Shown: piece after piece, positions 10,829-49,608 of the stretch
Layout: each line of letters starts with the position of its first letter
Position numbering within the stretch: position 1 is the stretch's first letter
Assembly (NCBI RefSeq): GCF_040529335.1
Contig: NZ_CP159534.1
Span: 5,890,001-5,954,000, forward strand
Length of the DNA: 64,000 nt
Direction: 5' to 3'
DNA from: Streptomyces sp. HUAS MG91
GTDB taxonomy: Bacteria > Actinomycetota > Actinomycetes > Streptomycetales > Streptomycetaceae
The notes under the pieces: model-generated
Databases searched by the model: none
Seen by the model: only the letters and a program-made list of their open reading frames with translations
What the model was told of the DNA's origin: nothing
Made by a program: the position numbers and the translations under genes

Positions 10829-11009
10829 CTAGGGCCTGTCTCTCAGATCCCTCCTGCCCCGCGACGCCTGGCACGTGCTCTCGCCGCACCGGGCACAAGG
10901 CCGAGTACGTCCAGTACGAGGCCTCGCGCCCGGCACGCCGAGAGCACGCACCAGACGCCGCGGGGCCCGCCCTCCGGGCGGACGGAGGGATCTGAGAGAC
11001 AGGCCCTAG
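10829..11009. mobile_element. MITE-like hairpin element, copy A, flanked by CTAG repeats
   Basis: A 173-bp non-coding unit (10833-11005) lies between two CTAG tetranucleotides (10829-10832 and 11006-11009), which look like a target-site duplication. Its 22-bp ends are perfect inverted repeats: GGCCTGTCT plus CTCAGATCCCTCC on the left, and the exact complement on the right. The interior is also an imperfect palindrome, centred on GTACGTCCAGTAC, so a single strand could fold into one long hairpin. A second copy is at 48931-49109. The right CTAG supplies the TAG stop of the minus-strand DUF427 gene. No transposase is present; a 4-bp CTAG target would fit IS5-family enzymes (inference). Confidence 0.8.
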
Positions 11010-48309: not shown

Positions 48310-48352
48310 ACTGTGTAAAACGTAGGTATAGGACGGCTGTATGGATCCGGGG

Positions 48353-48358
48353 TACGGT
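48353..48358 (+). promoter_or_regulatory. Candidate -10 box for the leaderless TetR gene
   Basis: TACGGT ends 6 nt before the ATG at 48365, which argues that this ATG, not the one at 48341, is the start. Confidence 0.5.
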
Positions 48359-48364
48359 GCGGGC

Positions 48365-48934
48365 ATGGGACACCGTGAAGATCTGCTCGAGGGCGCCAAG
48401 CGCTGCCTGCTGGAGAAGGGGTTCGCGCGGACGACCGCGCGCGACATCGTCAAGGAGTCGGGGACCAACCTGGCGTCCATCGGCTATCACTACGGGTCGA
48501 AGGACGCGCTGCTCGCGCAGGCGTACGTGGCGCTTGCGGAGGGGGTCTCGCAGGAGTGGGGCGAGCCGGGCGAACTGCCGGGCGCGAACGGCTCGTTGGA
48601 ACGGATCAGGGCCGTGGTCGGCGGCATCACGAACAGCCTCGGCAAGCCCGGCTCCATCTGGCACCTGAGCATGGAGCTCATCGTCATGGGCGACAAGATG
48701 CCGGCCCTGCGCGAACACATGTCGGCGGCCCAGCGTGAGGCGGGGCGCGGCTTCATCGGCATGGTGATGGGGGAGGAGCCGCCGGCCGACGACCCGAGCG
48801 TGGACACCCTCGGCAAGTTCTTCTCGGTGCTCGTCATCGGGCTCGTCGCCCAGCACACCTTCGACCCGGACTACTCGCCGAGCGCCGACGAACTCACCGA
48901 GGGGCTATCCCTGTTGATGGAGGCGGCCCGCTAG
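48365..48934 (+). CDS. TetR family repressor next to the MFS exporter
   Basis: The protein is 189 aa from ATG 48365; an in-frame ATG at 48341 lies upstream of the likely transcription start and is disfavoured. The HTH reads TTARDIVKESGTNLASIGYHYGSKDALL. The C-terminal domain resembles the TetR proteins that control multidrug exporters. It probably represses the divergent MFS gene and itself through the direct repeats. Its TAG stop is part of the CTAG at 48931 that begins the second hairpin element. Confidence 0.9.
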   Translation: MGHREDLLEGAKRCLLEKGFARTTARDIVKESGTNLASIGYHYGSKDALLAQAYVALAEGVSQEWGEPGELPGANGSLERIRAVVGGITNSLGKPGSIWHLSMELIVMGDKMPALREHMSAAQREAGRGFIGMVMGEEPPADDPSVDTLGKFFSVLVIGLVAQHTFDPDYSPSADELTEGLSLLMEAAR

Positions 48935-49109
48935 GGCCTGTCTGACAATTCCCGTCTGCCCCGCGACGCCTGGCACGCGCTCTCGCCGCACCGGGCACCA
49001 GGCCGAGTACGTCCAGTACGAGGCCTTGCACCCGGCACGCCGAGAGCACGCACCAGACGCCGCGAGGCCGCCCTTCGGGCGACGACGGGAATTGTCAGAC
49101 AGGCCCTAG
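48931..49109. mobile_element. MITE-like hairpin element, copy B, flanked by CTAG repeats
   Basis: A 171-bp unit (48935-49105) lies between CTAG at 48931-48934 and CTAG at 49106-49109. Its 22-bp ends are perfect inverted repeats: GGCCTGTCT plus GACAATTCCCGTC, with exact complements on the right. The interior is nearly identical to copy A at 10829-11009. The two CTAG copies supply the stop codons of the convergent TetR and Dabb genes, so the element entered what was probably one shared CTAG stop and left both genes intact. No coding content and no transposase are seen. Confidence 0.82.
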
Positions 49110-49522
49110 GCGGTGCCGTCGTCGAAGGGCCCCTTCGGGCCCGGGATCGCGTCCAGCAGGCGGCCCCACTCCGGGTACATCTCGACCTTGCGGGCGTGCA
49201 GGGCGAGGATCCTGGCGTCCAGGTCCGGGTCGGGATCGTCCGAGAAGCGGAACGCGGTGAGCTGCTGAAGGTGCGGGATGATCAGCCAGTCCCCGTCGAT
49301 GTGCACCGGTTCATGCAGGTAGCGCTCCAGGGCCGCCAGGTCCGGGACGCCCGCGCAGTACACGTGCGTGAAGCCTTCGGCGGGGTCGCCGAGGTACCGG
49401 CCGACGGTCCCGAACGCGACCGGTTCCGTGCTCGCCGTCCGGCGCATCGCGGCGAGCACCGCCTCCTTGTCCGCTTCCGACGTGCCGTCCCTGAAGCTGA
49501 ACCGCAGGGTGTTCACGATCAT
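49106..49522 (-). CDS. Dabb (stress-responsive alpha/beta barrel) family protein
   Basis: The 138-aa protein begins MIVNTLRFSFRDGTSEADKEAVLAAMR and carries the alternating strand pattern, VAFGTVGRYLGD and FTHVYCAGVPDLAALERYLHEPVHI, of the ferredoxin-like Dabb fold. Some relatives in polyketide clusters are cyclases, but most are of unknown role. The ATG follows GAGAGGAG at good spacing, so the longer open frame upstream is not used. It is divergent from a TetR gene, and one of two matching palindromes lies 29 nt upstream of its start, so TetR control is likely. Confidence 0.83.
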   Translation of the reverse strand: MIVNTLRFSFRDGTSEADKEAVLAAMRRTASTEPVAFGTVGRYLGDPAEGFTHVYCAGVPDLAALERYLHEPVHIDGDWLIIPHLQQLTAFRFSDDPDPDLDARILALHARKVEMYPEWGRLLDAIPGPKGPFDDGTA

Positions 49523-49550
49523 GTGACGCTCCTCTCGGGTCTCCTCAATA

Positions 49551-49566
49551 TGAACTCGCGGGTTCA
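49551..49566. promoter_or_regulatory. TetR operator site 1 (Dabb side)
   Basis: TGAACTCGCGGGTTCA is a 16-bp palindrome with arms TGAAC and GTTCA. Its twin is at 49609-49624. Both lie between the divergent Dabb and TetR genes. Confidence 0.72.
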
Positions 49567-49608
49567 AGTTAGTGGTCTCCATGGTCGGATTTCGCGGGTT
49601 CCGGAAAA

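Follow-up and report, generated by a model that had tools for sequence, protein, structure and literature searches.

Copies A and B and their surroundings

The window, by which we mean the whole stretch of 64,000 nucleotides that was analysed (G000:C1:5890001-5954000), lies within an 8.6-Mb Streptomyces genome and carries two copies, A and B, of a short element bounded on either side by CTAG. Copy B (48931..49109, plus strand) measures 179 bp from CTAG to CTAG and lies between two convergent open frames, one on the plus strand to its left (48341..48934), the TAG stop of which (48932-48934) falls inside the left CTAG, and one on the minus strand to its right (49106..49582), the TAG stop of which (49106-49108) falls inside the right CTAG. 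Within these sites B begins with a 22-bp terminal repeat, GGCCTGTCTGACAATTCCCGTC (48935..48956, plus strand), to which the right end (49084..49105, minus strand) is exactly complementary; between the two are found a 101-nt hairpin core (48963..49063, plus strand), the minus strand of which folds better, and, on the right side only, a small extra hairpin, CGCCC-TTC-GGGCG (49069..49081, plus strand). Copy A (10829..11009, plus strand; 181 bp from CTAG to CTAG) likewise has a 22-bp left end, GGCCTGTCTCTCAGATCCCTCC (10833..10854, plus strand), an exactly complementary right end (10984..11005, minus strand) and a 101-nt hairpin core (10861..10961, plus strand).

Over the whole element the two copies are 89% identical. 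The first nine bases after CTAG, GGCCTGTCT, are common to both, and are followed by 13 that read GACAATTCCCGTC in B versus CTCAGATCCCTCC in A. As stated in the original prediction, these 13-bp segments differ at six positions, all six of which are compensated by the exact complement at the right end. The folding of both copies from end to end, also predicted, was upheld by computed folds with shuffle controls: B reaches -127.7 kcal/mol on the plus and -161.6 kcal/mol on the minus strand (z -13.3 and -17.4), A reaches -150.3 and -178.5 kcal/mol, respectively (z -15.4 and -19.4), and for each strand of each copy none of 200 shuffles was as stable. No Rfam 15 covariance model reached its gathering score in the window, none matched at E up to 1 at 48900-49140, and the phage sequences searched with the element gave no match.

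A widespread family with a constant layout

A and B are copies of a widespread actinomycete MITE family, short and gene-less. At least 142 copies were collected in which CTAG-like sites and inverted ends mark both boundaries, 19 of them in the genome that contains the window (hereafter the own genome); these copy numbers are lower bounds biased towards one loop sequence, since the genome searches scored a part of the candidates. The own-genome search gave 36 matches, and at least 34 of the 61 genomes searched contained a hit with E no higher than 0.001, the poorest of these hits being probably due to chance. A plasmid search returned 25 records (23 Streptomyces and two Embleya) and a contig search by exact pattern at least 118 stretches; the 80 contig matches listed are nearly all from Streptomyces, with a few from Actinokineospora, Herbihabitans and Amycolatopsis and one from another actinobacterium. 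The hairpins of Pseudonocardiales (L069, L128, L104 and L119, hosted by Actinokineospora, Herbihabitans and Amycolatopsis) have the same 20-nt loop and very different ends.

Two recognisable ends accompany 129 of the 205 non-redundant hits to the core, one end accompanies 56 and none the remaining 20, and the 142 bounded copies passed a requirement for matching ends (the end-match rule: 11 of 16 or more), which favours matched ends. Copies are dispersed and mostly 165-181 bp long, and are taken to be non-coding on size alone. The left flank, from CTAG to core, measures 28 nt in 113 and the core 101 nt in 112 of the 142 copies; the 89 distinct copies combining a 28-nt left flank with a 101-nt core form the set used for statistics, and in 75 of these the right flank is 32, 42 or 44 nt long. 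This 101-nt hairpin core carries at least ten types of end, the ends of 99 copies falling into 20 clusters by single linkage (at most 2 of 17 differences).

Two further observations concern the interior of such hairpins. A small palindromic repeat of about 27-39 nt (TCCCC...GGGGA type) recurs inside the arms at similar sites, and is found in the left or right arm at L010-L013, L080, L096, L101, L109, L116 and L124. A second family of the own genome (L380-L386) is about 190 bp long and combines R-type ends with another hairpin interior.

The two ends vary together

Independent neutral mutation had been judged inadequate as the source of the pattern, and this judgement extends to the family, in which covariation of the ends is strong and the fold runs end to end. 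Of the 1,958 cells given by the 22 end pairs in the 89 copies, 1,818 are Watson-Crick. For the analysis of covariation we took, from the 89 copies (all of them bounded under the end-match rule), 16 representatives with left ends that differ at four or more of 17 bases. Among these, 91% of end pairs are Watson-Crick, compared with 51% in shuffles and 24-30% when the ends are slid, and two-sided changes are seen in 17 of 17 end pairs, the shuffle maximum being 15; the covariation of the stems that the original prediction asked about is thus present. Core pairs 1-32 covary less (12 two-sided pairs versus 5.2 in shuffles, maximum 9), and apex pairs 33-42 are paired in 69% of cases versus 51% in shuffles, with seven two-sided changes, a number inside the shuffle range (maximum 8).

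When the ends are recognised separately, they match within 4 of 16 in 128 of the 129 two-ended core hits, a limit that also passes the A/B hybrid L012 and concerns a sample beside which 76 of the 205 core hits have one or no recognisable end. A type could be assigned to both ends in 127 bounded copies, four of which are discordant; L012 alone among the four fits two prototypes exactly, and the others may be decayed ends.

The ends resemble those of insertion sequences

The ends were compared with 91 IS ends, gathered as CTAG-flanked inverted ends at loci with DUF4096 (PF13340) or IS630-type transposases; by coordinates, the ISs used hold inside their CTAG pair a PF13340 domain, an annotated IS5/IS630 transposase or a homologue of one. 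The first 16 nucleotides of the B end are identical, at 16 of 16, to one end of the full-length IS5-type elements L186 and L226. Types C (L218), R (L350) and F (L242) are likewise identical over all 16 positions to an end of a CTAG-flanked IS5-type element; types D and P match an IS end at 15, type E at 14, and types A, M and K at 13 of 16 positions, the closest IS ends found for A (L063, in the own genome) differing at three of 16. As background, three of 1,092 other 16-mers following CTAG come within three mismatches. Type T1 was left out of this tally, its prototype being itself an IS end and the comparison hence circular. The types at L037 and L038 differ from the nearest IS end at 4 of 16 positions, and those at L046, L069/L128 and L105 at 5-7 of 16, as measured in a smaller library.

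The IS5-type partners (the DUF4096 group, which we take to be IS427) are CTAG-flanked with a PF13340 transposase between their repeats; PF13340 is present in L190, and L222 has the PF13358 and winged-helix domains seen in IS630 transposases. IS630-type ends (TGCCGCATCAGGCAACG...) are carried by neither A nor B, and are approached in other members of the family: the T1 copy L225 differs from L224 at 2 of 24 positions, and T1b and T2 copies differ from IS630-type ends at 2 of 16 (L320; L334 and L335). Ends belonging to two unrelated transposase families, IS5- and IS630-type, thus occur on one core. In the own genome no B-type IS was found, all six exact B 18-mers lying in small elements, and of its ten DUF4096 loci L063 alone has a CTAG-flanked end pair under the end-pair rule used.

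Some of the full-length elements hold additional genes. IS5-type elements with B-type ends are L186 (2001-3669), L187-L189 and L226 (702-2371); in the plasmid copies L186-L189 a class I SAM-dependent methyltransferase gene lies just within one end, and L226 closely resembles them in length and ends. The IS630-type elements L222-L224, of about 1.5 kb, have a second gene within the repeats, glyoxalase-like or hypothetical. At L185, where the right end was not found, an annotated aminoglycoside adenylyltransferase adjoins an IS630-type transposase.

A polarised core and the question of hairpin conversion

Mismatches in the core are unevenly distributed between the strands. In the orientation used, mismatched core cells of the 89 copies are A.C in 776 and G.T in 81 instances, an excess which means mainly G.U on the other strand; core pairs 4, 7, 12, 13, 16, 17, 27 and 28 are A.C in 75-94% of the copies, and a few pairs (9, 26, 29, 41, 46 and 47) lean the opposite way. 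All 89 cores fold more stably as the minus strand (mean -82.5 versus -54.4 kcal/mol), and 88 of them still do so once corrected by shuffles. The G.U pairs of this polarised hairpin point to selection on one strand, with strand-specific mutation bias as a source from which the polarity may alternatively have arisen. The mirrored words GACGCC and GCAC run in the same direction in both arms of the core, and a reading as protein-binding sites is therefore possible. Selection to keep the hairpin, one of the two sources originally offered for the pattern, agrees better with the core, in which mismatches are polarised and pairing exceeds that of shuffles, than with the ends.

The second source, replication or conversion through a single-stranded hairpin, supposes that in a folded single strand one arm templates the repair or fill-in of the other, such that both ends change together. 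A single joint event would then alter both ends, leaving them perfect and in fixed register within a full-length hairpin, and the longer sequence ...AATTCC.GTC, found at one end only of the ISs L186 and L226 and at both ends of MITE B, is of the kind such an event would produce. However, conversion of the whole hairpin should erase both the A.C mismatches and the right-only hairpin, and both persist, the former at eight core pairs and the latter as right-only subterminal sequence kept under many end types. One-sided hybrids exist as well (L012, A/B, and L387, a 71-bp C/A hybrid without core), and the variable ends equal or resemble the repeats of distinct full-length ISs, which speaks against their being templated by the hairpin. 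For these reasons we consider such conversion quite improbable. A conversion limited to the outermost bases may occur, and is slightly favoured by the fixed register and by the doubling in B of the sequence that L186 and L226 have at one end.

Insertion sites, empty sites and stop codons

The sister genome G083 provides empty counterparts. The locus of A is empty there, with one CTAG, as are those of L005, L007, L014, L016, L018 and L020, or seven of the 19 own copies for which G083 was consulted; the presence of one CTAG in the empty sites versus two around the element fits a 2-bp (TA) and a 4-bp (CTAG) duplication alike. IS630 and its relatives select CTAG and duplicate TA. At the loci of L010 and L012 the element is absent from a less clean alignment, and at those of L011 and L013 G083 has neither element nor CTAG. 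Other DNA separates the flanks at L008 and L024, the left flank alone is orthologous at the B locus, and the two flanks of L002, L003, L015 and L017 were not found together in G083. The site of L006 (L422 in G083) holds an A-type element there too, in the opposite orientation and with a different core, which may reflect either ancestry or repeated insertion.

Some copies lie close to remnants of others. Adjoining elements or tips share one CTAG at L385 and at G000:C1:2727502-2727688 and 5139636-5139833, and beside the CTAG of several copies there is a short stub derived from another end; the stub at L007 is missing in the sister genome, as though an earlier copy had left its tip.

The relation of the elements to genes was assessed with a codon-position model, according to which the reading frame agrees with the TAG in 81 of 99 flanks that code towards an element and have a TAG in the CTAG-like site. 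Where coding sequence lies on either side of the element, 30 of 43 pairs are convergent. Counting the open frames that end at the TAG of the CTAG was tried and set aside as uninformative, other frames being about equally open in GC-rich DNA. These two counts and the very high stability of the folds are what would be expected of bidirectional terminators between convergent genes, selected by the host and with a stem kept for its fold. Yet targeting of CTAG suffices to put copies at stop codons, because CTAG carries TAG on both strands, and an insertion into CTAG between convergent genes can spare both stops. Moreover, the ends match IS repeats, flanks are joined without the element at 11 of the 19 own-copy loci in the sister genome, with one locus occupied, and the polarised core shows no bias with respect to gene orientation (6 versus 6), all of which makes a function as terminators very unlikely to explain the pattern.

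Reassortment of ends and cores

Near-identical cores occur beneath very different ends. Elements L086 and L098 differ at five of 101 core positions and at 13 of 17 end positions, all 13 being matched on the opposite side, and their ends differ at 2 of 16 from those of the IS5-type L241 and the IS630-type L320, respectively; in the extreme pair, L037 and L038, there are three core and 13 end differences. On a tree of the cores the typed copies need 25 changes of end type, and the distinction of IS5- versus IS630-type needs five, change counts which are rough, the tree having 101 columns and a bootstrap that had not settled, and type K lumping more than one sequence. The eight own-genome A, B and C copies in this tree all fall within one starred clade (98/86). 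One left-arm insertion is common to the own-genome copies L010 (C/C), L011 (A/A), L012 (A/B) and L013 (C/C), and a second, nearly identical insertion is present in the right arm of L012 and L013; these shared insertions could, with a lower probability, have arisen independently, since they belong to a small repeat that enters the arms in other species as well. To judge from such comparisons of sequence, ends and cores reassort within the family. The left flank of 28 nt, fixed even between IS5- and IS630-type ends, is not what random capture of ends would yield.

It had been foreseen that the pattern could instead be due to two unrelated subfamilies, each with a fixed end. The middles would then resemble each other in appearance only. 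Part of this holds, in that the end types are discrete (the 20 clusters among 99 copies), and part does not, in that cores are shared across end types within the same genome, near-identical ones under different ends included, and that the core keeps its length of 101 nt in most bounded copies. For A, B and C the idea conflicts with the single starred clade and with the insertions found in common, and it appears most unlikely for the family as a whole. Scarcely credible is a gradual co-evolution in which end pairs drift by paired point changes alongside the transposase, for although the frame GGnCnTGTC...CCCGTC is common to many types, both ends can jump by 6-13 of 17 bases where the core has three differences, and IS5- and IS630-type ends sit on a nearly identical core.

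Probable mobilisation in trans and exchange of ends

We consider that the family is best explained, with a probability of about 0.72, as CTAG-inserting MITEs mobilised in trans, the ends of which are matched by the requirement of a transposase and are exchanged between cores by recombination. Weighing against it are the absence of a B-type IS among those seen in the own genome, the three mismatches between A and its closest resident IS, the end types that have no close IS in the library used, the constant left flank, and the missing CTAG in G083 at the L011 and L013 loci. A and B would accordingly be non-autonomous MITEs inserted into CTAG, and their ends terminal inverted repeats recognised by transposases that act in trans, with IS5-type (DUF4096) enzymes presumably acting on A, B and most relatives and IS630-type enzymes on other members with the same core. 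The two ends of a copy probably agree because one transposase has to cut both; a copy with unlike ends would be neither excised nor multiplied by one transposase, and only matched copies would spread. Different ends could reach the same core through recombination between copies, either by conversion of the middle between resident copies of unlike end type or by exchange of an end, and products with mismatched ends would arise but stay rare. On this mechanism there would be no need for one arm to template the other. What is maintained of the core would be the fold of one strand, whether RNA or single-stranded DNA, and our guess is that this fold aids the spread of the element and not the host.

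A more far-reaching form of this proposal, which we put forward tentatively and think less probable than its failure, is that a portable core constitutes the lasting unit, carried by many transposases drawn from two unrelated families through changes confined to its end signals at fixed geometry, and that the folded minus strand, as RNA or single-stranded DNA, actively makes it an efficient passenger of any transposase at hand that targets CTAG. By keeping its body and changing its end signals, a parasite without genes could cease to rely on a single transposase, and the family illustrates how. Common and varied as it is, it offers a natural experiment on the choice of transposase partners, and it is also useful for the study of recombination between short dispersed repeats and of a polarised hairpin.

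Relation to known repeat families

Among the matches listed in our literature searches, which included little subscription content, no such Streptomyces family was described, and the literature searched yielded no case of one core common to two unrelated transposase families. In the parts of the cited sources available to us, several systems invite comparison. REP/BIME sequences with their RAYTs are likewise dispersed extragenic palindromes, but REPs are described as 20-40 bp long, tagged at one end by GTAG or CGTC and served by tyrosine transposases (PMC3733652), whereas the A/B family is mostly 165-181 bp long with CTAG at both ends and IS5-/IS630-type partners. The Correia/NEMIS and ERIC elements are closer, being MITEs of about 100-200 bp with transcripts that form long stable stem-loops; the portion of the source consulted does not describe alternative IS ends on one core (PMC2229807). 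The RUP elements of Streptococcus pneumoniae are also short bacterial MITEs with TA in the target and a tight fold, and their ends resemble those of the IS630-family element IS630-Spn1; compared by description, they differ in that one partner IS is named and in being AT-rich (PMC2229807, PMC3049150).

The nearest precedent is provided, on the excerpts seen, by the coral CMITEs, in which the internal region is more conserved across families than the terminal repeats and for which cross-mobilisation has been proposed (Wang et al. 2010, PMC2872659); as in our family, the core is better conserved than the ends. The CMITEs are, however, eukaryotic, and all their ends keep a piggyBac motif and hence belong to one transposase superfamily (PMC2872659). 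Unlike them, the actinomycete family is a MITE variant that combines IS5- and IS630-type ends with a core of fixed length, a strand-polarised fold and hybrid copies.
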